DNA of 25,884 nt. Origin: a virus. The DNA is taken from IMG/VR virus record IMGVR_UViG_3300042564_003044, positions 1 to 25,884 of that record; one strand, given 5' to 3'. Below, piece after piece: positions 2,546-22,102 of this stretch; position 1 is the first letter of the stretch, and each line of letters starts with the position of its first letter. The notes under the pieces are model-generated. The model saw nothing but the letters and a program-made list of their open reading frames with translations, did no database searches and was not told the DNA's origin. A program made the translations under genes and the position numbers.

Positions 2546-3214
2546 TTATTTATTTTTAAAACTCTCGTATAAGTTTAATATATCCTCTACTATTGGATCT
2601 CTATGATTAGTTAATAGTGCTACTTTTTCAAATTTATTTAAACCATTTTCTTTTAAATAATCTAAAAATTTAATTCCTGAAGTAACATTACGAGCTAAAT
2701 CTATTTGATTCACATCTCCACATAACATCATTTTACTTCCTTTCCCTAACCTCTCCATAACCATCTTAACCTGTGATTCTGTAGTATTTTGAACTTCATC
2801 CACTATAATTACAGCATCACAAAAAGTACTTCCTCTCATATAAGCAAATGGTCTTATTTGTATAATACCATCTTGTATCATTTTATCTACCTTTTCTTTT
2901 TTATACAATGCATAAAAATTTTGATAGATTGCTTGAACATAAGGGTCAAGCTTTTCCTCTAAACCACCTGGTAAAAATCCAAGTTTTTCTCCTGCTTCTA
3001 CAGCAGGTCTTGTTATTATTATATGTTTTACTTGCTTTTTAAAAAACAAATCTAAAGCCACTTGGCAGCATAATAATGTCTTACCAGACCCTGCCTTTCC
3101 TGAAATATAAGTAATGCTATTATCTAATATAACTGCTTTTGCTACCTTTTGTTCAGAATTTAAGCTAATTTGAAACTTAATATTTTTTTCTCTTTCATTT
3201 GCAAAGTCTGACAT
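2546..3214 (-). CDS. phoH: PhoH-like P-loop ATPase
   Basis: 222 aa, the length of a single PhoH domain. Walker A is GKAGSGKT (39-46), followed by the family motifs ITRP (67-70), GFLPG (79-83), AYMRGSTF (124-131), Walker B VIIVDEVQN (135-143) and the sensor-like MLCGDVNQID (163-172). All key PhoH residues are present, so an active NTPase is expected. PhoH proteins are widespread in bacteria and phages and are linked to RNA metabolism; the phage role is not settled. The gene lies between two tail-region clusters and is co-transcribed with them, which is odd for a metabolic ATPase. The start at 3214 gives MSDFANERE and leaves a 49-base gap upstream, where a one-mismatch -7 box (CATATTTG, 3237-3244) is visible. 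Confidence 0.92.
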   Translation of the reverse strand: MSDFANEREKNIKFQISLNSEQKVAKAVILDNSITYISGKAGSGKTLLCCQVALDLFFKKQVKHIIITRPAVEAGEKLGFLPGGLEEKLDPYVQAIYQNFYALYKKEKVDKMIQDGIIQIRPFAYMRGSTFCDAVIIVDEVQNTTESQVKMVMERLGKGSKMMLCGDVNQIDLARNVTSGIKFLDYLKENGLNKFEKVALLTNHRDPIVEDILNLYESFKNK

Positions 3215-3549: not shown

Positions 3550-4827
3550 TTATATATTATTTGTTGTTGTATTTAAATTATTAATAGGATTATTATTCCA
3601 ATCTAAACAATATGCTAATATTGAAGCTCCTAAATAACTAGGATTCATTCCTGTTGTAAAATAAGCATTTCCAGTAAATTTACCAAATGTATTACCTAAA
3701 AAACTATCATTTCCTGCTTTACAGTAATAAAAATTACCTGTTGACTCGTTAGTACCAAAACTTTCTTCTCCTGCTTCACAATTATAAAAACTGCCTCCTG
3801 CAATCAAATCTGGCCAACCTTGTTTACCTGCACCAAAAGAATTATTTCCACCTTTACAGTTTTTATAAATGCTATTAGCAATATTTGCACCAAAGGATTC
3901 ATCTCCTCCTACACAATTAATAAATGAATTGTCATCACTATTCTTAACTGAAAAAGAATTATCTCCTGCTTTGCAATTATTTAATTGAGATGTTTCTATA
4001 GTAGCTGATTCTCCAGGTACATTAGTTCTTCCAAAAGAACCCCTATCAGCAGTACAATTTGTTAATGTAGAACCAAAAATTCCCTTTTCACATCCAAAAG
4101 ATTCCATTCCTGATTCGCAATCATTTAAGATTGATTCAGGAATTACAAAAAAACCAAAACTTTGAGCACCAGCTAAACAATTTTTTAATACACTACTTTC
4201 TAATTGATAACCAAATGAAAAATCTAAAGCAGTGCAATTTTCTAATGTAGAACTTATTAATATTTCTTGATTACTTGAATCCCCAAAAGAACTAAATCCT
4301 CCTTTACAATTTTTAAAATTACCTGCAACTTTACCCTCAAAAGTAGTATTTGAAAAACTGTAATCTCCTCCAATTATATTTTCAAAATAATTATTATCGA
4401 AACCATCACTTATAATAAGTCTATTATTTAAAGTGGTTAAATTAAATCCTTTTATTTTAATATCTGAAGTAGTAACTTTTATAGCAGTATTACTATTAGA
4501 ACAAGTTAAAAATACATCTGCATCTCCTGTTAATGAAATTAAATCTACATAAGGAGTATCCATTTCTAAAGTATCAAAAAAATCATACTTTCCTGGGGCT
4601 ACTAATACAGTAACTCTATTAGTATCAGACAAAAGTTGCCCATTTGGAGTCAAAGTTTTTGCAAAAGCTAATTTGTCTACTAATTCAGTACCATTACTAA
4701 AAGTATTAAAAAGATTACCATAAACTACTATATAATTATTACCTTTTAGTTGCTCTTTTGCTTCTAGTTTATCTTCTAATATTAATAAACTATTACCTAA
4801 ATCTGAGTTTGTTATTAATGTTGCCAT
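3550..4827 (-). CDS. solenoid (beta-helix) tailspike-like protein, copy B, about 11 coils
   Basis: 425 aa. Residues 1-30 form a short N-terminal part without the longer head seen in copy A. Residues 33-110 (YIVVYGN...RVTVLVAPGKYDF...LEMDTPYVDLISLTGD) match the entry strands of copy A. From about residue 148 the chain repeats NCxxGxxSFG with a 19-26-residue period (Cys at about 174, 198, 217, 237, 258, 285, 305, 324, 350, 369), as expected for a right-handed parallel beta-helix with a Cys/Gly/Ser-Phe ladder. The C-terminal cap (YCLDWNNNPINN) matches copy A. Such proteins usually trimerise into tailspikes for adsorption; enzymatic activity cannot be judged. It follows the 197-aa gene by 31 bases. 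Confidence 0.75.
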   Translation of the reverse strand: MATLITNSDLGNSLLILEDKLEAKEQLKGNNYIVVYGNLFNTFSNGTELVDKLAFAKTLTPNGQLLSDTNRVTVLVAPGKYDFFDTLEMDTPYVDLISLTGDADVFLTCSNSNTAIKVTTSDIKIKGFNLTTLNNRLIISDGFDNNYFENIIGGDYSFSNTTFEGKVAGNFKNCKGGFSSFGDSSNQEILISSTLENCTALDFSFGYQLESSVLKNCLAGAQSFGFFVIPESILNDCESGMESFGCEKGIFGSTLTNCTADRGSFGRTNVPGESATIETSQLNNCKAGDNSFSVKNSDDNSFINCVGGDESFGANIANSIYKNCKGGNNSFGAGKQGWPDLIAGGSFYNCEAGEESFGTNESTGNFYYCKAGNDSFLGNTFGKFTGNAYFTTGMNPSYLGASILAYCLDWNNNPINNLNTTTNNI

Positions 4828-5869: not shown

Positions 5870-6874
5870 TTATAATTTATTTTGAGGAGTAAATCCTTGA
5901 TTATTTGGTTCTCCATTTCCATCTACACAATATACAGTTTTACCTGCCCCAGTTACTGTTTCAAATGTTCCAGAAGTTAAACGACAGTAATATAAAAACC
6001 CATCTAGTGTTCCAAAACCTCCAAATGAGGTAGATTCACCTATGCAGTTATTAAAAATACCGTTTGCTGTTCCATTACCTCCAAATGAAACAGAAGTTCC
6101 TGTACAATTTGTATATGTACCTGAAGATACTCCTCCCATAAGTGACCCTCCAAATGAATAAGCTCCTGCTTTACAATTTTCATATATTCCTGAAGATGTT
6201 GGAAACGTTGTGCCTCCTCCAAATGAATAAGCTCCTGCTTTACAATTAATAAAAGTACCTGAGGATCCACCGTTTCCTCCAAATGAAAAATCACCTCCTA
6301 CACAATTTATATAAGTTCCTGCTGCATTAAACACTCCAAATGAATTATTTCCTCCCGTACAATTTTCTATTTTTAGTAAATTTAAAGAAGGATTAGTTTT
6401 AAATTGTTTAGTTTGTACATCTACTCCCTTTACAAAAACATCATTTGCAGTTATAAAAATTGAACCTTTTTCAGGAGTTGATAAGACAAGAGGAGCATTA
6501 AAAACAATACTTCTGTTTCCATCTAAAGACACTAAATCAATAAAATTAGTATCCATAGTAAATACATTAGATTCAAAATTATAATTACCTGGGCCAGCTA
6601 TAATCGTAATTCTTTTTGTTGATGTAGGTAATCTCATTTGAGCAGCAGTATAAGCTGCTTGAAGTTCTGCAGCATTTTCTATATCTGTACCATTAGCAGC
6701 CACATAAATATATTGGCTACCTTCTAATCCTCCTCCAAAAAGAGTTCCTAATTCTTCTACAGTTATTTTATCTGTAGAATTTGCACCTACTCTTACAATA
6801 GGTAAAACATCCACTACGGGATTTATTTGACTTCCTAATACATTAGAAAGCTCTGTTATTTTTACACTTGACAT
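5870..6874 (-). CDS. solenoid (beta-helix) tailspike-like protein, copy A, about 6 coils
   Basis: 334 aa. Residues 1-45 (VKITELSNVL...VVDVLPIVRVG...DKITVEEL) are the N-terminal head pattern of many phage tail-fibre proteins. Residues 55-125 (YIYVAANGTDIENAAEL...ITIIAGPGNYNF...FTMDTNFIDLVSLDGN) lead into a solenoid whose coils repeat NCxxGxxSFG from residue 171 to about 284 (Cys at 172, 191, 211, 234, 257, 277), ending with a YC-x-D-x-N-x-x-P-x-N cap near 315-325. Two coils share an identical 31-bp DNA segment (6148-6178 and 6217-6247, 69 bp apart), evidence of recent coil duplication. It is homologous to the 425-aa protein but has about five fewer coils. Likely role: adsorption spike on the virion. 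A second minus-strand open frame inside it (6040-6294) is an out-of-frame product of the repeats. Confidence 0.78.
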   Translation of the reverse strand: MSSVKITELSNVLGSQINPVVDVLPIVRVGANSTDKITVEELGTLFGGGLEGSQYIYVAANGTDIENAAELQAAYTAAQMRLPTSTKRITIIAGPGNYNFESNVFTMDTNFIDLVSLDGNRSIVFNAPLVLSTPEKGSIFITANDVFVKGVDVQTKQFKTNPSLNLLKIENCTGGNNSFGVFNAAGTYINCVGGDFSFGGNGGSSGTFINCKAGAYSFGGGTTFPTSSGIYENCKAGAYSFGGSLMGGVSSGTYTNCTGTSVSFGGNGTANGIFNNCIGESTSFGGFGTLDGFLYYCRLTSGTFETVTGAGKTVYCVDGNGEPNNQGFTPQNKL

Positions 6875-6893
6875 ATTTTTTTTATTTAATTTT

Positions 6894-7340
6894 TTATTTT
6901 ATAATATATTGACCACTTTGAGTAAGTAAACAATTTGAATTTTGAGTAGTGATATTAGTTAATAAATTACAACATCCAAAAACTTTTTTAATTACTCCTG
7001 TAAAGCTAATAGTTTCAATAGTTTTTCTAGGTCTAATTACATCAGTAGTAATCCACCATTGTTCACTTCTTTGTCCTACACAAAGATTTTTATTTAGTTG
7101 GCAATTGTAAATGTCCATCACTAATTTGTTTAATGACATCCAGTTTGCACCTGGTTTTTTTCTACCTCTTAATAAATAAGCTTTTTTAATAAACAAATCT
7201 GTTTTATCTTCACAACAAGCGAGGTTAAAACAAGTAAAAATGTCGTTGACAATGTCTGTCATGTTAATAAAGGCACCTTGATTGACAAGTTTATGCTTGC
7301 CTTTATAAATTGCCTCTGAAAGAATTAAAGTATTTTTCAT
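6894..7340 (-). CDS. Cys-rich fibre-module protein (copy A)
   Basis: 148 aa, homologous along residues 5-125 to the 197-aa protein of copy B, with the shared order SEAIYKG, DIFTCFNLACC, FIKKAYL, KKP, SLNKL, DIYNC, LC, QWWI, IRP, TIET. It lacks the three DLAGN repeats and ends with NCLLTQSGQYIIK. The paired Cys (FTCFNLACC, GCCNLL) could form disulfides or bind metal. It is the first gene after the strong terminator at 7403-7438, and a -7 box at 7357-7364 could start its transcript. It starts the first copy of the three-gene fibre module. Specific function not recognised. Confidence 0.7.
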   Translation of the reverse strand: MKNTLILSEAIYKGKHKLVNQGAFINMTDIVNDIFTCFNLACCEDKTDLFIKKAYLLRGRKKPGANWMSLNKLVMDIYNCQLNKNLCVGQRSEQWWITTDVIRPRKTIETISFTGVIKKVFGCCNLLTNITTQNSNCLLTQSGQYIIK

Positions 7341-7356
7341 GTATTTATATTTTCAA

Positions 7357-7364
7357 CAAAAATA
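7357..7364 (-). promoter_or_regulatory. candidate promoter (-7 box) for the fibre-module operon
   Basis: Minus-strand TATTTTTG fits TAnnTTTG exactly and is the same octamer as in the better-supported promoter at 23537. It lies between the terminator at 7403-7438 and the ATG at 7340, where a new transcript must begin if termination is efficient. No TTTG -33 box is visible at 18-20 nt. Confidence 0.45.
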
Positions 7365-7402
7365 AGTATTAATTTTTATATTATAAAAAATTTTTAGTAT
7401 GT

Positions 7403-7438
7403 AAAAAAAATAGGTAGCAAAGAAATCTCTGCTACCTA
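7403..7438 (-). terminator. strong intrinsic terminator after the 391-aa structural gene
   Basis: On the minus strand TAGGTAGCA (7430-7438) and TGCTACCTA (7411-7419) form a perfect 9-bp stem with a 10-nt loop, followed immediately by eight T (7403-7410). This is a canonical rho-independent terminator, 55 bases past the stop of the 391-aa gene. The 152-base gap it sits in also holds the candidate promoter at 7357-7364. Confidence 0.9.
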
Positions 7439-7492
7439 CTCCACACACAAAACAATATATTAATTAATAATATTCTTTTTTTGTAGAATGTC

Positions 7493-8668
7493 TTATAGAC
7501 ATTCAAGTTCAATTGTTTTACCACAAGGACCTGTTGTAACAAAAGCATTCAAAGTATTTTCTACTGCAGTTTGAGTAGTAGTATGTGCTTCTGGAACCAA
7601 GATAGTTGTGATAAAGTTTGGATTCCAATTCATACCATTTGCATTCTCATTTGGAGAAACTGTATGATAACCCAATACATATTGGCAATATGTTTGATTA
7701 CAATCAACTAACAAGTTTTTAGTTCTTGATACACCCAATTGAGCATAGTAAGGAGCTCCTGTAGTTTCAACTTCGCTGTTTAAACCATCGAAACCTGTAC
7801 CACCTGGCATTTCATTATACTCTTCCCATTGTAATTTAGCACCATGACCTTCTGGCAATTGCATTCCTGTATTATCTACAGAAACACTTGTAGAATTTGG
7901 AGCCCATCCTGAATTTAAAGTAACTTGAATAGATCCAATAGTATATCTATCAATAATAGCTTCTGCTGGAGGGAAACATCCACAATCTGCAGTGTTTACT
8001 TTGAAAGTAACTTCGATTGCACAAGAAAATCCTGGAGCAGGAACGATTGGTGCAACTGCATCTGCTGAAGTTTTTACACTTGCCACATATTTTGACAATA
8101 ACTCATTTGACTCAATAGCAGCTTTGAATTTTAAAGCAACTTCTTCACAATCATGTGTGTAGTCGCAATCTCCATCACATGTAGGACAATCTTCTGACTG
8201 TACTGAAATGGTTTCTACATGGTATCTATTTTCTGGATAGAAAAAGTTTAATGTAGGATCATTTACTTTGATACCAATTGAGTAGTTTTGAGCACAATCT
8301 GTACAAGAAAAGTTAAACTTAGCTTTGTTAGAAGCACCTTCTTGAGGAGCTTTAACACTTGCATTATCCATTGAACATGAAGTTAAAGTTTCTCCTGCTG
8401 CTAATCTAACTCCGTCTGAAGAAAGTTTAGAAGCGTTTTTGTCAACTCCAATAGCAACATAAATTGATTTTACTCCTACAATAGTAGTAGCATCTACTGC
8501 TGTATTAGTTTCAGCATTGTAAAACCCGATTTGACCTGGTCTTAAAAGATATTGTTTAGAAGTAGCATTGTAAAATGCAGTACCAGTTGGAACAATACCA
8601 TATCCTGTCGCACTACCTGCAACTGCAGAAGTAGGAAGGAACATTTGTTTTTGAATTCTTGATCTCAT
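7493..8668 (-). CDS. probable abundant virion structural protein, 391 aa
   Basis: Begins MRSRIQKQMFLPTSAVAGSA. Residues 20-80 (GYGIVPTGTAFYN...LRPGQIGFYN...VGVKSIYVAIGV) form a beta-rich N-terminal domain. The middle has Cys clusters (FSCTDCAQN, EDCPTCDGDCDYTHDC near 155-175, DCGCFPP near 228), and the rest alternates like beta sheets to an ECL end. No signal peptide or membrane segment. I do not recognise a named family; a tail or capsid-accessory virion protein is inferred from size, position after the head-completion genes, and the private strong terminator at 7403-7438, typical of highly expressed structural genes. It starts 22 bases after the 234-aa gene. Confidence 0.65.
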   Translation of the reverse strand: MRSRIQKQMFLPTSAVAGSATGYGIVPTGTAFYNATSKQYLLRPGQIGFYNAETNTAVDATTIVGVKSIYVAIGVDKNASKLSSDGVRLAAGETLTSCSMDNASVKAPQEGASNKAKFNFSCTDCAQNYSIGIKVNDPTLNFFYPENRYHVETISVQSEDCPTCDGDCDYTHDCEEVALKFKAAIESNELLSKYVASVKTSADAVAPIVPAPGFSCAIEVTFKVNTADCGCFPPAEAIIDRYTIGSIQVTLNSGWAPNSTSVSVDNTGMQLPEGHGAKLQWEEYNEMPGGTGFDGLNSEVETTGAPYYAQLGVSRTKNLLVDCNQTYCQYVLGYHTVSPNENANGMNWNPNFITTILVPEAHTTTQTAVENTLNAFVTTGPCGKTIELECL

Positions 8669-8690
8669 TTTGATTTTTATTTAAAGTTTG

Positions 8691-9395
8691 TTAAATTTTT
8701 GATATATTTAATATTTTATTTAATTGTGATTCAAAATCTATAGTATTACCTACATCTCTCATTGCGATTAATACTGCAATATCTATGATTTTGTTTGATT
8801 GGAAAGTAGAGTTTACTTCTATATTTCTTTGTACAGCTAATGTTCCATCAGGTAGCTTATAAGTACCTCCTCCATTAATAAAATCTTGGGGATTCCCTGG
8901 ACGTAAAGGTTTTCTTATATAAGTGATAAATACTTTATCAATATCAAACCCTTCATAATATAAGTATAATTTATTTCCAGACATATCCATGTTTACTCTT
9001 TCAAAAGTATAAGAAGAATTAAACATTGGATCATTTGCGTATATATCGTCCTTTTGTATGAAAAAATTCTTAATTGTTTTCTTTGGACAAGTAGCTGTAA
9101 AACATACTGAATACGACTCTAAATATCTATAATAATCTGAAGGAAGATCTGCTGTGTAATAATCATCGTTAATCTTAGTTACAGCAAGAGGGAAGTCTTT
9201 TATTTCCAACTCTCTAATATCATCTCTTCTCTTTTGATTTATTTCTAGCTGTTCACAAATATTTTCCAACCATATTATATATGCTTCCCATAAGTATTCA
9301 TCAATCTGAGGCACTAAGAAATTAGCATTCCTTAAACCATCTACTTTGTTAGCATGTTGTTTAAACTTATAATGGGCATCTTTAATTGAAAACAT
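8691..9395 (-). CDS. putative head-tail connector (ring/adaptor) protein
   Basis: 234 aa. The helical N-terminal half (KFKQHANKVDGLRN...VPQIDEYLWEAYIIWLENICEQLEINQKRRDDIREL) followed by a beta-rich middle (YYTADLPSDYYRYLES...) and a helical end is the layout of head-tail adaptor proteins that sit below the portal. The family is not proven by a diagnostic motif. Its ATG overlaps the stop of the 303-aa gene by one base (TAATG), so it is translationally coupled. Its place downstream of MCP fits a head-completion role. Confidence 0.55.
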   Translation of the reverse strand: MFSIKDAHYKFKQHANKVDGLRNANFLVPQIDEYLWEAYIIWLENICEQLEINQKRRDDIRELEIKDFPLAVTKINDDYYTADLPSDYYRYLESYSVCFTATCPKKTIKNFFIQKDDIYANDPMFNSSYTFERVNMDMSGNKLYLYYEGFDIDKVFITYIRKPLRPGNPQDFINGGGTYKLPDGTLAVQRNIEVNSTFQSNKIIDIAVLIAMRDVGNTIDFESQLNKILNISKI

Positions 9396-10306
9396 TATTT
9401 CATTTTAGCTTTTAAAGCCTCTTCTAGGCTTAGATATAATGATGAATTTTCTGGTTTTTGTAAGAAATCAATAATATGAATAGTATCTGTTTGAAGCTGT
9501 TCTCCATTAAAGAATACTTTAACATTTTCTTTTCTTAACACAGCATATTGGTACATTTTTTCTACATTAATAGTAATCTCCAATTTAGCTTTATTTTTAG
9601 GATCTGATAATTCAATAAATAAATCTTGAATTGCTGCTAAAGTTTCTTTATTTTCATTTTCTGTAATCTTAGAATACAGTAAATCCTCAATAATGATTTC
9701 TTTCTCGTCTCCTGTTAATTTAATACCTAATGCGGTACTCATATCTCTTTTTTGTGATAAAGTAAGCTTATTGTATCTTTCGTGCAATTTGCTTGTTTTC
9801 TCACGCTTAGATTCTCTTATTGTAGCGTCTGCTACTTCATCTTCTATAATCCATTCTGCTGTTGGATGTTTTGAAAGAGAAGTTTCTCCTATAACTGTCA
9901 TTGGATCTGCCGACATAATTGCATAAATCAATTCTTCTGTAGGTTTATTCAAGTCAAGAGTTTGAATATCTCTTCCTAATTTTGCTCTACACTTTGAATG
10001 TGTAAAGAATGGATCTTTTCTGTTAGAAGGATCTGCTGATGTGATTTTTTGATTAGTAATCTCATCGTTTAAAGCTAATTTTCTAACCAATGTATTAATT
10101 TGCTCATCAGTGTATCTTTGGTTAATTGGACCTAGATTGTATCTATAAGAACTTTCATCAAATTGAGGCCTAATTGTATTAGCGTTTGCTAAAAAAGCAT
10201 AAGATTCTGATGCTTGTCTATAAGCAGGGTCAATATTAACTTGCCAATGCTTATTTTTTTTAATGTTTGGGTAAATTTTTACCTTTTTGTTTGTTAATGT
10301 GCTCAT
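9395..10306 (-). CDS. hypothetical virion-associated protein after MCP, 303 aa
   Basis: Not recognised. Lys-rich start (MSTLTNKKVKIYPNIKKNKHWQVNID), then a polar region with many Asn/Arg (RPQFDESSYRYNLGPINQRYTDEQIN), a helical charged middle (residues 160-230, SKREKTSKLHERYNKLTLSQK), and a beta/alpha C-terminus ending EEALKAKMK. No Cys-rich or membrane segments. The leader carries the AAACACACAAA element 9 nt before the start. It is the first gene past the MCP terminator and tRNA-like element, and is coupled to the connector candidate by TAATG. A head-completion or internal virion protein is inferred from context. Confidence 0.6.
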   Translation of the reverse strand: MSTLTNKKVKIYPNIKKNKHWQVNIDPAYRQASESYAFLANANTIRPQFDESSYRYNLGPINQRYTDEQINTLVRKLALNDEITNQKITSADPSNRKDPFFTHSKCRAKLGRDIQTLDLNKPTEELIYAIMSADPMTVIGETSLSKHPTAEWIIEDEVADATIRESKREKTSKLHERYNKLTLSQKRDMSTALGIKLTGDEKEIIIEDLLYSKITENENKETLAAIQDLFIELSDPKNKAKLEITINVEKMYQYAVLRKENVKVFFNGEQLQTDTIHIIDFLQKPENSSLYLSLEEALKAKMK

Positions 10307-15886: not shown

Positions 15887-18190
15887 TTAATATTTGAGTA
15901 AATTGGTGTTTTTTAATTGATTGCGGTACAAATCCGTGTAGAAATCTTTTGAAGTAGTTTGCACAATTTCTTCTGTTTCTTTTACAATCATTTCTCTATC
16001 TTGTTCTAGCCACAACATTAGAAGTAAAAATGCTGATACACGGTCAAAGTTTCCTTTATCATTATATTGTATAAGCTCTTCAATTAATAAATCATCTTTT
16101 AATGTATGTAAATTTCTAACTACCACTTCTCTTTTTGTACCATCTTCTAGTTCTTCTACATATTTCTTTTTTTCTTCTAATAACCATTGTTGAGCAAGTC
16201 TTAACGCATATTGTTTCAAAGGAGCTGTCATTGGTACTCCTACGTCATATTTTAAAGTGGGATCCTTTATAGCTTTCTCAATAACTTGTTTTGGAGTGAG
16301 AGCCAATATATGATAATTTCCTGTACGCATACAGTAGTTTTTAAAGTCAATAATGTTATTCTCAAACATTACTTCCGCATTAAAGTACTTGGCGGCCAAT
16401 ACACAATTTAAATGTATTTCTTCTGGCATATCATATCTTCCTACCCACCATGCAACTAATTCATTACCATTAGCATCTACAGTATTATTAGATTTATAGA
16501 CATAGATTGCTGCTAACGAGGTACCCCCTCCTTCATCTCTAATCGGGTCATATACAATTTTAAAAAGATTTCTAGGTATTATACCAGCAGGAGGATGTTC
16601 GTAAATCTCCCAGGCACTTCTCAAATCAGATTTAGAATCGTGAGGAAATCTATCTATAGGTTTTAAATCTGAATTAGGCTTGAACTTAACTCCTGAAATA
16701 TAATCTTTATCTTCTACCAATGACCCTACTGTTCTTAAATGTTTTTTAAACTGGTACCTATCATTAGTAGCTTGCTGTTCTCTAAGCATTACTATTGGGA
16801 ATTTATTACCTGTTTTTGACAAGAACATTTCTGAAGGCTTAAGCGGCCTAGACATAATATACTCATCATAGGCCGAAGTATTATTAGCTTGTTTTTTCTC
16901 TTCTCTTCGCTCCATTTCATACTTCAAAGCGGTTTCTACATCTGTATTTCCGTTATCATCTTTGTAAGCTAAGTTTGTATAAATTGCTGGTAGGAAAAAA
17001 CCTATTACTCCCCTGCCTTCGTAAATATCTTTAAACCCTAAAAAGTCATAAGCTTCAGGGTCTCTAAATATAATCTCAGATTCAATAACTTTTTCCATGT
17101 CTCCACCTGTTCCAAGATAGAAAGAAGACCCAAACTTACCTGCTCCCATATCCTGAGTAGATTCGTTGGCACCATGCACTGTAAGGATTTTATCTTCCAA
17201 TCCCACCTCTTCTACTACTAATACATTGTAACGGCCCCCAACGGCCGCTTGTTTATTGTCCTTATACGTTTCATGAATAAGTAAAGATCCTGTACCTTCT
17301 TTCACTGTAGAATTACCTATTTTCTTCTCGTACTCAAATCTATAAGGATTCTTAGAATTACCTACTTTAAGCGTACCAGAAAAAGCCCTACTAAAAGGAG
17401 AAGGAAAGTATTCTCTGTCAAAATATTCTCCAGGCAAGTTTTTTAAAGAGTTGGAGAATTTATCTAATAGTTGAGAAGATTTTCCAGAACTAGCAGATCC
17501 ACAAAAAATCTCCACTTTATTATTTCCTGAAAGATAATCTTCTACCGTTTTAGCCCCATCAGATAACCATTCATGTTCCATTAATGCTGAGGCCATAAAG
17601 GATTTTCCTCCCGATCGAGATCCTAATAAAAATAAATTCAAAGCATTATTATCATAAATAGGATTGCCCAAATTCTTATCATGAGTCTTATTTAAGTATT
17701 CTAAAGGATCTATGTATGTTTTTAATGAACCGTCAGTCTTATAACAATAATCAGATAGGTTATTTAAAAATTTTAGAGGAATGTCAGGGCCAGAAGGATT
17801 ATTTAATTTATCCTCTTTTAGTTTAACTGTCCAATTACAAGTGTATTCTTCATCTTCCTCAAATCCACTAAAACCTCTACAAATAAACCAACAATTTAAT
17901 ATTGTCCAGTTTATATCCAATAAACTAGGTCTTGATTTAATACGCTGTTTACCATCTTGAATAGTAATAGTGTGATAGTTGGTAAAATAATTCAACTGAG
18001 GATTCATATATCTCCAACGTAACCCTTCAGGAGTATTTTCTTGCCGCCACACTCCTAATATAAACTCTTCTAATTCTTTAGTCCAATACTCATCGTAAGC
18101 TGTACTATGAGGGTGTAAAGACGGGTGGTTTTTTATAAAAGAGGTGTTATCATATATTTTTGGAAATATATATTCAGTATTAATTATCAT
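15887..18190 (-). CDS. terL: terminase large subunit
   Basis: 767 aa with both TerL domains. ATPase: Walker A GSRSGGKS (190-197), Walker B VLVVEE (323-328), coupling motif near TGG (361-363). Nuclease (RNase H/RuvC-like): DPIRDEGGG with D548, E610 in EVMFENN, and D716 in NFDRVSA, giving the usual D-E-D metal-binding set. N-terminal residues 30-110 (EYWTKELEEFILGVWRQENTPEG...YMNPQLNYFTNYHTI) are the crAss-like/Bacteroidota-phage TerL type. A second P-loop-like segment, GSASSGKSS (231-239), follows the true Walker A. The gene powers DNA packaging through the portal. Its ATG overlaps the stop of the 72-aa gene (ATGA). Confidence 0.95.
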   Translation of the reverse strand: MIINTEYIFPKIYDNTSFIKNHPSLHPHSTAYDEYWTKELEEFILGVWRQENTPEGLRWRYMNPQLNYFTNYHTITIQDGKQRIKSRPSLLDINWTILNCWFICRGFSGFEEDEEYTCNWTVKLKEDKLNNPSGPDIPLKFLNNLSDYCYKTDGSLKTYIDPLEYLNKTHDKNLGNPIYDNNALNLFLLGSRSGGKSFMASALMEHEWLSDGAKTVEDYLSGNNKVEIFCGSASSGKSSQLLDKFSNSLKNLPGEYFDREYFPSPFSRAFSGTLKVGNSKNPYRFEYEKKIGNSTVKEGTGSLLIHETYKDNKQAAVGGRYNVLVVEEVGLEDKILTVHGANESTQDMGAGKFGSSFYLGTGGDMEKVIESEIIFRDPEAYDFLGFKDIYEGRGVIGFFLPAIYTNLAYKDDNGNTDVETALKYEMERREEKKQANNTSAYDEYIMSRPLKPSEMFLSKTGNKFPIVMLREQQATNDRYQFKKHLRTVGSLVEDKDYISGVKFKPNSDLKPIDRFPHDSKSDLRSAWEIYEHPPAGIIPRNLFKIVYDPIRDEGGGTSLAAIYVYKSNNTVDANGNELVAWWVGRYDMPEEIHLNCVLAAKYFNAEVMFENNIIDFKNYCMRTGNYHILALTPKQVIEKAIKDPTLKYDVGVPMTAPLKQYALRLAQQWLLEEKKKYVEELEDGTKREVVVRNLHTLKDDLLIEELIQYNDKGNFDRVSAFLLLMLWLEQDREMIVKETEEIVQTTSKDFYTDLYRNQLKNTNLLKY

Positions 18191-18652: not shown

Positions 18653-19207
18653 TTAATTTGTTTTTTTTGATTTACTTACTAGTTTTTCAGTGAAAGATTC
18701 TTCTCTTCCTCCTCTAGCTCTAGTTTCTATATTTTCTTCTTGGTATTCTTTATAAATTTTTCCAAAAGACTCCCAAATAAGTTTAGAATCTTTCATCATC
18801 TTATCTAGGGCTTCAAAGGTATCTAAACTATAAGAAACCGTTTCTAAGAACTTATTTCTTTCCTCTATCTTATCTTGCCATACCTTCAACTCTCTTTGAA
18901 TCTTTGTCATCACTACTTTAGGGTAGGCATCTATCAAATCTTGATGGTATTCAAAGCTAAACGTATCATCTTTCAAGAAATATTTCTTAATATCCTCTTC
19001 TCTCTCATCTTTTCTAAGTCTAATCTTAGGAGACTTTATATCACAAAATAAAAATATAGCCCACATAACTTCAGAAGAAAAATCTTTGTTTTCAGTAGCA
19101 TTATAATAATCATCAAAAGGCTCTGTGAATTTAAATTCTGGATTTACTTCCCAAAAAGAATATCTATTCTTTTCGTAATCAAAATTCTGCATCAAATAAT
19201 AATCCAT
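18653..19207 (-). CDS. hypothetical phage protein upstream of terminase, 184 aa
   Basis: I place the start at 19207 (MDYYLMQNFDYEKN), which overlaps the SET gene end by 29 bases; a longer open frame to 19261 exists but would overlap SET coding by 83 bases, and ATG at 19192 is also possible. Acidic/aromatic start (NPEFKFTEPFDDYYNATENKDF), then SSEVMWAIFLFCDIKSPKIRLRKDEREEDIKKYFL, a pattern I associate with conserved phage proteins near the packaging genes, then helical segments (LDTFEALDKMMKDSKLIWESFGKIYKEYQEE) and a basic tail (RARGGREESFTEKLVSKSKKTN). Function unknown. A virion or assembly role is a guess from context. Confidence 0.6.
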   Translation of the reverse strand: MDYYLMQNFDYEKNRYSFWEVNPEFKFTEPFDDYYNATENKDFSSEVMWAIFLFCDIKSPKIRLRKDEREEDIKKYFLKDDTFSFEYHQDLIDAYPKVVMTKIQRELKVWQDKIEERNKFLETVSYSLDTFEALDKMMKDSKLIWESFGKIYKEYQEENIETRARGGREESFTEKLVSKSKKTN

Positions 19208-19583
19208 CTTCTGTATTTTTATTATTAAATAAATAAAGGTTTTTTGTGCATACTCGTTCACCTGTTTCTCTGTCTGTGAATTCTTTTATTATGATTTCTT
19301 CAGTTTCATAATAATTTCTTTTAATTTCATCCCCTTCCCTTATCTTTCTAATAGCCACTAAAGAGTGTCCTTCAACCCTAACATTAGGATCGAAAGAATG
19401 TTTTATGTATTTTACAATAGGATCTAATACATGGTAGTTATTATCTAATTGTATTGTGTGTTGAGTAGGTATTTTTGATTCTTCACAGCATATAAATAAT
19501 ACTGTTTGACCAGGGAAGAATTCCTTATTAGAAATAACTTCTTTAAATTTTTTATTTTTTATTATGTTAAAATGATTACTCAT
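19179..19583 (-). CDS. compact SET-domain protein (putative protein-lysine methyltransferase)
   Basis: 134 aa. The C-terminal SET signature is clear: HSFDPNV (62-68) matches the NHS-x-x-PN motif, followed by GHSLVAIRKIREGDEIKRNYYETEE (72-96), matching the LVAxRxIxxGEEI-x-x-(D/N)Y segment with the conserved Tyr at 91 or 92. The N-terminal half (SNKEFFPGQTVLFICCEE...PTQHTIQLDNNYHVLDPIVKYI) matches the first strands and TIQL segment of compact SET proteins. The usual Asn of NHS is Lys61, so activity may be altered. The family transfers methyl groups from SAM to lysine. It overlaps the ClpP-like gene by 8 bases, pointing to coupled expression. Target and role in the phage are unknown. Confidence 0.8.
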   Translation of the reverse strand: MSNHFNIIKNKKFKEVISNKEFFPGQTVLFICCEESKIPTQHTIQLDNNYHVLDPIVKYIKHSFDPNVRVEGHSLVAIRKIREGDEIKRNYYETEEIIIKEFTDRETGERVCTKNLYLFNNKNTEDGLLFDAEF

Positions 19584-20100
19584 GTATTATTCTTGTTTTA
19601 AATATTTCTAATAAATCATTATAGTATAAAACTACATCTTCTCCTTTTAGTAATTTTTTCATTTGTTTGTCTGGAAGAGGTAAATTTCTTAGTAACTCAG
19701 AAAACCCTTTCTGTTCTAATTTATTTTTAAAATCTACTTTATCATAAATATGGTTCTTATTCATATCTAAAATAGCGTCTATTCTAGGAAAATGAATTAA
19801 ACTTCTTATAGATTTATCCAATAGACAAATAGGTACAGAAGTATTTAAGAGTAGAAAAAACCCTGAACTTGAACAATCTTCTATAGGGTAGAGTATAATG
19901 TCTCCATATTCTTCTATGGCTTTACTTATAGGGTAAACATAGCTTACATATCCCCCAGGACTATTTATAAAAAAATTAACAGGAAGATCACTTGAATTTA
20001 AAAAAGAAAGAGCATCGTTTATAGCTGATAACTCAAACGGTCCTTCAAAAATATAATTTAATCTTTTTGCTTCCAAAAACATTTCTGTATTTTCCTCCAT
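19576..20100 (-). CDS. ClpP-like serine protease
   Basis: 174 aa. Family motifs in order: NFFINSPGG (42-50), the oxyanion/substrate loop; CSSSGFFLLL (76-85), with S78 aligning with the ClpP nucleophile; IHFP (102-105), with H103 exactly 25 residues after S78, as in ClpP; and D155 in LLKGEDVVLYYNDLLEIF, matching the Asp position before the final helix. All three catalytic residues are therefore present. Phages use ClpP/S49-type proteases as prohead maturation proteases, and the gene lies just upstream of the terminase-portal-MCP block. A host-directed protease is the alternative. It lacks a signal peptide and starts 5 bases after the DUF1573-like gene. Confidence 0.82.
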   Translation of the reverse strand: MEENTEMFLEAKRLNYIFEGPFELSAINDALSFLNSSDLPVNFFINSPGGYVSYVYPISKAIEEYGDIILYPIEDCSSSGFFLLLNTSVPICLLDKSIRSLIHFPRIDAILDMNKNHIYDKVDFKNKLEQKGFSELLRNLPLPDKQMKKLLKGEDVVLYYNDLLEIFKTRIIHE

Positions 20101-20105
20101 ACTTA

Positions 20106-20432
20106 TTAAATTATATTTTTAGCTATCCTTAAAGAAATAGCTGTAGCATTTCCAAAAACATAAATGAATTTATCTGAAGGAGTACCTAGTTTAATAGTAA
20201 AACTTAATTCTTTGCTTTCTCCTGGCTCTATTATTGTTCCTGTATTTACACCTAATGGTGTTGTGCATCCACAGCTTTTTGATACATCTTGACATATAAA
20301 AGTTTCTTCCCCTATATTTTTTACCATAACTGATCCTGAAACTGTTTCATCTCTTTTACCTTCTACAACTATAACTTCTGGTTCAAATACCACTGTAGTA
20401 AGCTTTAAGTTTGGGTTTATAATTTCTGACAT
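20106..20432 (-). CDS. DUF1573-like (Ig-like) protein
   Basis: 108 aa. A beta-sandwich pattern with VSGSVMVKNIGEETFICQDVSKSCGCTTP (31-59), containing the SCGCT signature at 53-57, then IEPGESKELSFTI (68-80). This matches DUF1573, an immunoglobulin-like domain common in Bacteroidota and their phages. There is no signal peptide, so it is probably a virion or cytoplasmic version. It follows the Cys-cluster gene by 4 bases and precedes the protease by 5 bases. Ig-like domains often decorate phage capsids or tails, but this is inference. Confidence 0.75.
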   Translation of the reverse strand: MSEIINPNLKLTTVVFEPEVIVVEGKRDETVSGSVMVKNIGEETFICQDVSKSCGCTTPLGVNTGTIIEPGESKELSFTIKLGTPSDKFIYVFGNATAISLRIAKNII

Positions 20433-21345: not shown

Positions 21346-21777
21346 TTAGTTTAAAATGTGTTTTACGGTGATTAAATCTTCAGGGATTAAAAATGTTAAT
21401 TCTAAAGGCTTATCTGTTTCTTCTAACTTGTGGCAATAAAATGCAAAAGGCATCAATCCTTGTAAATAACTTCCAAATACAGGACGAGCTTCTCCATTAG
21501 GATCTCCTCCTACAGGCGGTTTATAACTTACAATTGGTTTATCCACCATGTTATCTCCTAAAGATACAATATCTCCTGGAACATATTTGTTACTACCATC
21601 TGCCATTAATACTTTAAAAGCATTTTTAATTTCAGTGGTTTTGTGTTGTTCCATACCTACAAGCTGGGAAGCTAATTCACTTCTCTTAGCAAAGCATTGA
21701 ACTAAAATGTGATTTTCTCTTTCAATTTTAAAGTTAAAATCGGGGATTGGTTGATTTTTAAATTCTTTAATGGTCAT
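21346..21777 (-). CDS. possible GroES-like co-chaperonin or small beta-barrel protein
   Basis: 143 aa. NHILVQCFAKRSELASQLVG (26-45), FKVLMADGSNKYVPGDIVSLGDN (54-76) and the end TFLIPEDLITVKHIL resemble the three key segments of GroES (N-terminal strand and mobile loop, the GxV...VGD segment, and the closing strand ending in (E/D)DIL). Length is between host GroES and larger phage co-chaperonins such as T4 gp31 (111 aa). The match is by eye and weak, so another phage beta-barrel is equally possible. Its leader holds a TATATTTG -7 box and the ACACACAAAA element, so it likely starts a transcript. Confidence 0.4.
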   Translation of the reverse strand: MTIKEFKNQPIPDFNFKIERENHILVQCFAKRSELASQLVGMEQHKTTEIKNAFKVLMADGSNKYVPGDIVSLGDNMVDKPIVSYKPPVGGDPNGEARPVFGSYLQGLMPFAFYCHKLEETDKPLELTFLIPEDLITVKHILN

Positions 21778-21838: not shown

Positions 21839-22102
21839 TTATTTTTTATTTTTCAATATTCGTAAAGTATTTATCATTTTTTTTGTTTTTTCTACTTCTC
21901 GTAGTTTAAAAAATATTTTAAGTCTTTTTTTTATTTTTAAGACACTAGGGGAAAATTTTCCAAACTTGGGAAAATAAATCTCTCTTGCTGGAGAAGCACT
22001 CATTTCTTTTGAGACAGTTTTAACATAATCTTGATAGATTTTTTGTACTTCTTCCGCAGAAATATTTCCTAGGTTATGAGCAACTTCTTCAAAAATATTC
22101 AT
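21839..22102 (-). CDS. HU/IHF-like fragment protein, 87 aa
   Basis: Residues 1-56 (MNIFEEVAHNLGNISAEEVQKIYQDYVKTVSKEMSAS...EIYFPKFGKFSP) follow the N-terminal helix-loop-helix plus first strands of HU/IHF proteins, where the strand normally reads V-x-(L/I)-x-GFG-x-F. The usual DNA-binding arm is replaced by a Lys/Arg-rich tail (VLKIKKRLKIFFKLREVEKTKK...NKK). crAss-like phages encode IHF-like proteins, which fits. It may bind or compact DNA. Its ATG overlaps the previous stop by one base (TAATG). The call is by pattern and not certain. Confidence 0.5.
   Translation of the reverse strand: MNIFEEVAHNLGNISAEEVQKIYQDYVKTVSKEMSASPAREIYFPKFGKFSPSVLKIKKRLKIFFKLREVEKTKKMINTLRILKNKK

Follow-up and report, generated by a model that had tools for sequence, protein, structure and literature searches.

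A divergent family of compact SET-fold proteins is fixed at one site in a single clade of crAss-like phages, and the features of its sequence suggest that it is probably a working SAM-dependent methyltransferase. Sequence comparison solidly places the open reading frame (ORF) as a true, divergent and compact relative of SET proteins; by extension, the protein would bind SAM, catalyse methyl transfer and act on a protein substrate. Work on SET enzymes has centred on the histone methyltransferases of eukaryotes and on effectors of bacteria; within SET proteins the phage family is an isolated variant. It is a syntenic and strongly selected SET family, located in the packaging region of one clade of a widespread phage order. 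Its classical SAM motifs are altered. Small and expressible, the protein is suited to asking whether the SET fold can work without GxG and what role SET domains have in a setting devoid of histones.

Genomic context and distribution

The window, i.e. the whole stretch of 25,884 nucleotides that was analysed, comes from an uncultured phage lineage and belongs to Crassvirales by its terminase large subunit (TerL), portal, MCP and HU-chaperonin-TerL order. TerL (15887..18190, minus strand) matches phrog_6681 (E 1e-84) and is 34% identical to that of Cellulophaga phage phi14:2, placed in Crassvirales by its record; the portal matches phrog_6547 and the MCP phrog_11589. The SET-fold ORF, recognised from the ORF listing, Pfam SET and the profile and fold matches, encodes 134 aa and runs on the minus strand from 19583 to 19179. 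The sequence-only reading had delimited it exactly and had given no strand; a plus-strand reading of 19179-19583 is ruled out by stops throughout.

Directly upstream lies a Clp-protease-like gene (19576..20100, minus; PF00574 E 0.045, phrog_1827 E 2.7e-4), with an 8-nt overlap between its stop and the SET start. On the other side, the SET stop overlaps by 14 nt the likely ATG start of the TerL-proximal gene (18653..19192, minus), which is conserved across crAss-like phages (g095 in phi14:2) and for which the program's ORF, 18653-19261, begins at an upstream GTG. These two overlaps suggest translational coupling. Farther upstream are a DUF1573 Ig-like protein (20106..20432, minus; PF07610 E 9e-9), which diverges faster among relatives than SET does; a likely 10-kDa-chaperonin-like protein (21346..21777, minus) with no Pfam match, assigned by position only from crAss001, where gp15 follows HU; and an HU-like DNA-binding protein (21839..22102, minus), supported by PF00216 in relatives (E 4e-4 in L056 and 7e-4 in L022, just under the cutoff) and by the "protein HU" of crAss001 at the same place. 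The gene had been described as lying upstream of the terminase, as it does, with three small genes in between.

Close relatives have a common order, namely HU-like, chaperonin-like, an acidic protein, a phrog_13610 protein, DUF1573, Clp-like, SET, the TerL-proximal gene, small ORFs and TerL, and SET occupies one fixed position upstream of TerL in all close relatives with contigs that extend over the site. An obligatory tie to the Clp-like neighbour was rejected, since L056 keeps SET without a Clp-like gene. In crAss001 the corresponding region runs from HU and the 10-kDa chaperonin through two genes and an endonuclease to TerL. The TerL-proximal gene is present in phi14:2, but SET is not, and g096 of that phage, considered as a counterpart of SET, was rejected on its sequence. 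No SET was found in the DNA around TerL of relatives with TerL identity of 43% or less. When nine distant contigs, possibly fragments, were searched in full, eight gave no SET match, and in the ninth (G313) a giant ORF contained a weak match that stayed below the cutoff. Present in close relatives but not found in the DNA searched from distant crAss-like phages, the gene thus looks as though it was gained in one clade.

Other features of these genomes may be recorded here. In some relatives TerL carries an in-frame insertion of ~330 aa. In L106, where the TerL gene spans 6533-9892 (L106:6533-9892), the insertion matches two Pfam models, the intein splicing domain (E 2e-16) and LAGLIDADG_3 (E 2e-15), and TerL is of similar length in L098, L099, L056, L107 and L108. 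Within the window, a PhoH-like ATPase (2546-3214, minus; PF02562 E 9e-63) lies among tail-region genes, and the proteins at 3550-4827 and 5870-6874 (minus) contain repeated N-C-x-G-G-x-x-SFG-like units and are possibly beta-helical tail or fibre proteins.

Homology to SET proteins and predicted fold

Against Pfam SET (PF00856) the window protein scores 22.8 bits, the gathering score being 22.4, over residues 43-91 only, and all 20 of the family members compared match the same model (best E 4.3e-6); PHROGs and NCBIfam gave nothing useful for this ORF. The family comprises 33 loci in the viral-contig scan, with identities from 100% down to about 70%, and 20 of them make up the alignment used here (A1). 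Searched with the A1 profile, all PDB sequences yielded one match (E 3.8e-6, residues 4-104), BurB (PDB 9l4t, 9l4v), a SET-fold methionine S-methyltransferase of Burkholderia thailandensis (PMC12542666), which was again the sole match of the single L056 sequence (E 1e-4). A tblastn search of plasmids with the L027 protein led to genes of Streptomyces that carry the annotation SET lysine methyltransferase (E 1e-4 at best). Finally, hhalign of A1 with a canonical SET profile, built from 19 canonical SET proteins of other loci, gave 97.3% (E 2.3e-11, columns 4-95), and the control, the same canonical profile against TerL, 0.3%.

From the family sequences alone AF2 produced an unusable model (pLDDT 43). 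A second model, for which 13 non-family SETs were added to the alignment, was of moderate confidence (pLDDT 68.5, pTM 0.57, core 79-90) and supports a SET fold. With it, Foldseek ranked BurB at the top (E 1.4e-7, TM 0.66), followed by MLL1, ASH1L, SETD8 and vSET, and only SET-domain structures stand among the 50 matches listed. Matches to viral proteins were with SETs from giant viruses and from uncultured tailed phages. The structure prediction that the sequence-only reading had proposed as a check thus favours, at this moderate confidence, the fold it had suspected, and in the profile and fold searches no other fold came out with a higher probability. Inclusion of those 13 SETs may have biased the model; the sequence-profile evidence is independent of it.

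Conservation and altered motifs

Across A1, 60 columns are invariant, among them T43, I44, Q45, L46, H62, S63, P66 and N67, as well as G84, E86, N90, Y92 and K100. The dN/dS of the SET gene is 0.05-0.14 (12 pairs, dS up to about 2), which shows that the ORF codes for a protein and is subject to strong purifying selection. Beyond the clade, annotated phages yielded no homologue in tblastn searches with the SET protein of the window and that of L027, conserved family peptides found none in the prokaryote genome collection, and the family profile, run against 297 genomes of the phylum of the Streptomyces genome G001, recovered G001 itself only; a viral scan for intermediates returned nothing beyond the known members and the L061 contig.

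The motifs on which the SET assignment had been founded are all present. TIQL (residues 43-46; 19446..19457, minus) is invariant in the family and corresponds to TLQI of BurB. KHSFDPNV occupies residues 61-68, its KHSFDPN part (61-67; 19383..19403, minus) being the NHSxxPN motif with the first Asn changed to Lys. The segment LVAIRKIREGDEI (75-87; 19323..19361, minus) represents the SET strand and GEE-type turn ahead of the Tyr, and in NYY (90-92; 19308..19316, minus) Y91 aligns with Tyr124 of BurB and the SET catalytic Tyr. To call this a near-complete SET signature was nevertheless too generous, for the N-terminal GxG SAM loop and the post-SET cysteines (CxC...C after the domain) are missing in every family member. 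Such cysteines are found in many canonical SET lysine methyltransferases, though not in all. The canonical GxG aligns with F13-K-E15, within KFKEV (residues 12-16; 19536..19550, minus), where the family reads K-F/L-K-x; throughout, position 12 stays basic and position 14 stays Lys. HSFDPN is invariant, and the Asn that should precede it is Lys in the window, as had been noted, and in most members, yet the change is lineage-specific: Asn is present in two sublineages, L027-L031 and L056. Y91 is found in the window and most members, Phe replacing it in L025/L032.

How such changes may be read is best seen in BurB, in which SAM is contacted by R42, A44, H72, H93, R133 and H138, with His93 and His138 binding the adenine and Arg133 the ribose (PMC12542666). 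By alignment, R42 corresponds to K/R12 of the phage proteins, A44 to K14, H72 to H/Y42, T73 to T43, S88 to K58, L92 to K61, H93 to H62, Y124 to Y91 and R133 to K100. Thus the equivalent of H93 is invariant and the positions of R42 and R133 stay basic; A44 is Lys in the phage family, the main chain being in question there, and His138 has no clear equivalent. In BurB, Y124F keeps >60% of the activity and Y124A loses almost all of it, and catalysis is proposed to proceed via proximity and desolvation (PMC12542666). Since BurB does without the NHS Asn and tolerates Tyr-to-Phe, the phage changes do not prove inactivity. The suggestion that the Lys could alter activity or specificity is therefore reasonable in so far as the residue could matter, but the Lys is not evidence of inactivity, BurB having Leu there and yet being active. 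As far as sequence goes, the altered motifs would be compatible with an inactive as well as an active protein.

Function of the phage SET protein

An active methyltransferase is the best bet given the pocket equivalents and the strong selection. SAM would be held by H62 of the HSxxPN loop, by the basic residues K/R12, K14 and K100 and by the TIQL strand, which together would stand in for the usual GxG and Asn contacts; the methyl group would pass through the narrow SET channel past Y91, and catalysis would be achieved largely by positioning and not by a strict general base. The apparently coupled translation with packaging genes makes a protein present during virion assembly the likeliest target, for example a lysine of the HU-like or of another late protein. 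It is gene position that points to a protein substrate at all. Lysine methylation of MCP, portal or a host protein, the idea put forward in the sequence-only reading, would be a conjecture: the nearest solved structure is that of a small-molecule S-methyltransferase, motif I (GxG) is lost, and the SET ORF sequence contains nothing that points to MCP or portal. The HU-like protein may be a natural candidate by analogy, and no more, with the archaeal Go1-SET, the target of which is reported to be the DNA-associated protein MC1-alpha (in a study cited by PMC10117894). That the SET protein modifies the phage's own HU-like or other late protein around packaging, using a SAM pocket remodelled to do without GxG and Asn, is improbable as a complete account; if true, it would amount to a histone-methylation-like system inside crAss-like phages.

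The main rival to an active methyltransferase is a SET pseudoenzyme, which would transfer no methyl group and whose fold would serve head assembly in a structural, binding or chaperone-like role; it is possible, though clearly not the favoured reading. That GxG is gone throughout the family, that most members have Lys in place of Asn and that one lineage has Phe in place of Tyr would all suit it, as would the loss of the post-SET cysteines from a gene still under strong selection, and MLL5, reported as a divergent SET that lacks intrinsic activity (PMC5094779), is a precedent. The HSxxPN core, TIQL, the basic SAM-side positions and the invariant Y92 speak against it, and so does BurB, active with Leu for Asn and retaining >60% of its activity with Tyr-to-Phe (PMC12542666); the Actinobacterial relatives also lack GxG, and are themselves methyltransferases by annotation only.

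An enzyme of the BurB kind, methylating methionine or another metabolite during infection, is rather unlikely. It would account for BurB being nearest by sequence and fold, for the shared lack of the NHS Asn and the shared H..DP stretch after TIQL/TLQI, and a mechanism like that of BurB would tolerate the Phe of L025/L032. BurB may, however, rank first only because solved structures offer no other compact bacterial SET, the grouping of the two in the tree is weak and affected by long branches, and the phage gene sits among packaging genes. Moreover, BurB holds Met by main-chain contacts (PMC12542666), so that sequence cannot reveal the substrate. Least probable by far is that the protein is not a SET at all and that its motifs match by chance in a phage protein of another fold. 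A Pfam score only 0.4 bits above the cutoff, confined to residues 43-91, and the unusable family-only AF2 model might suggest as much; against this stand the near full-length profile-profile match, the BurB match over residues 4-104, the independent tblastn link to annotated bacterial SETs and the exclusively SET-domain structures among the 50 fold matches listed.

Comparison with known SET proteins

SET proteins had been said to be little studied in phages. Tailed-phage SETs are in fact already present in databases, while the sole paper found mentions one in passing (PMC9025141). In the limited literature searched, no report of the crAss-like SET family and nothing relevant on SET proteins in crAss-like phages was found; the crAss001 structure paper was discarded, its match being the "C2-set" of immunoglobulins. 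The further SET-like proteins that tailed phages encode (L061, L064, L151, that of P-RSM6 in L063, and BFVD entries) are likewise small, but those examined have retained GxG-type loops and NHSxxPN, occupy other places in their genomes and are not close relatives. One of them, of 126 aa (L151:1453-1833), is a second and more canonical SET in the genome of a close relative, on the L084 contig (G309), with NHSYTPN, a GLG loop and a Pfam E of 2e-14. The cyanophage P-RSM6 protein (L063:2968-3267), of 99 aa with NHSEEPN and annotated as hypothetical, is encoded by the gene immediately upstream of that for the baseplate wedge, gp25.

The compact SETs of Actinobacteria (Streptomyces, Amycolatopsis; L062, L066, L067), annotated as lysine N-methyltransferases and linked to the phage family by tblastn (E 1e-4), share with it P-x-x-[YH]-[ST]-[VI]-Q, HS..PN, TTE/ETE and the absence of GxG. 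They differ in being longer and in keeping NHS and the post-SET CxCG...C, and their function is known by annotation only. The phage SET branch has a length of 2.5 changes per column, and the tree unites it with BurB and the Actinobacterial proteins only weakly, perhaps through a long-branch effect.

BurB is the nearest match to the phage SET by sequence and by fold, sharing TLQI/TIQL, H..DP, HSxxPN without the leading Asn, Y124/Y91 and the basic R133/K100; it is only ~27% identical to it and, unlike the phage family, retains GxG (as GAG) and the post-SET cysteines. Enzymes of the BurB type turn Met into S-methylmethionine and are encoded alongside sulfonium-compound genes. Paramecium bursaria chlorella virus 1 packages a minimal SET of its own, vSET, which methylates Lys27 of histone H3 (PMC7019647). 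As a compact viral SET, vSET resembles the phage protein (Foldseek match 3kma, E 4.6e-5, TM 0.53). It acts, however, on the host histones of a eukaryotic alga, whereas the phage setting has no histones and the phage family has both GxG and the NHS Asn changed.
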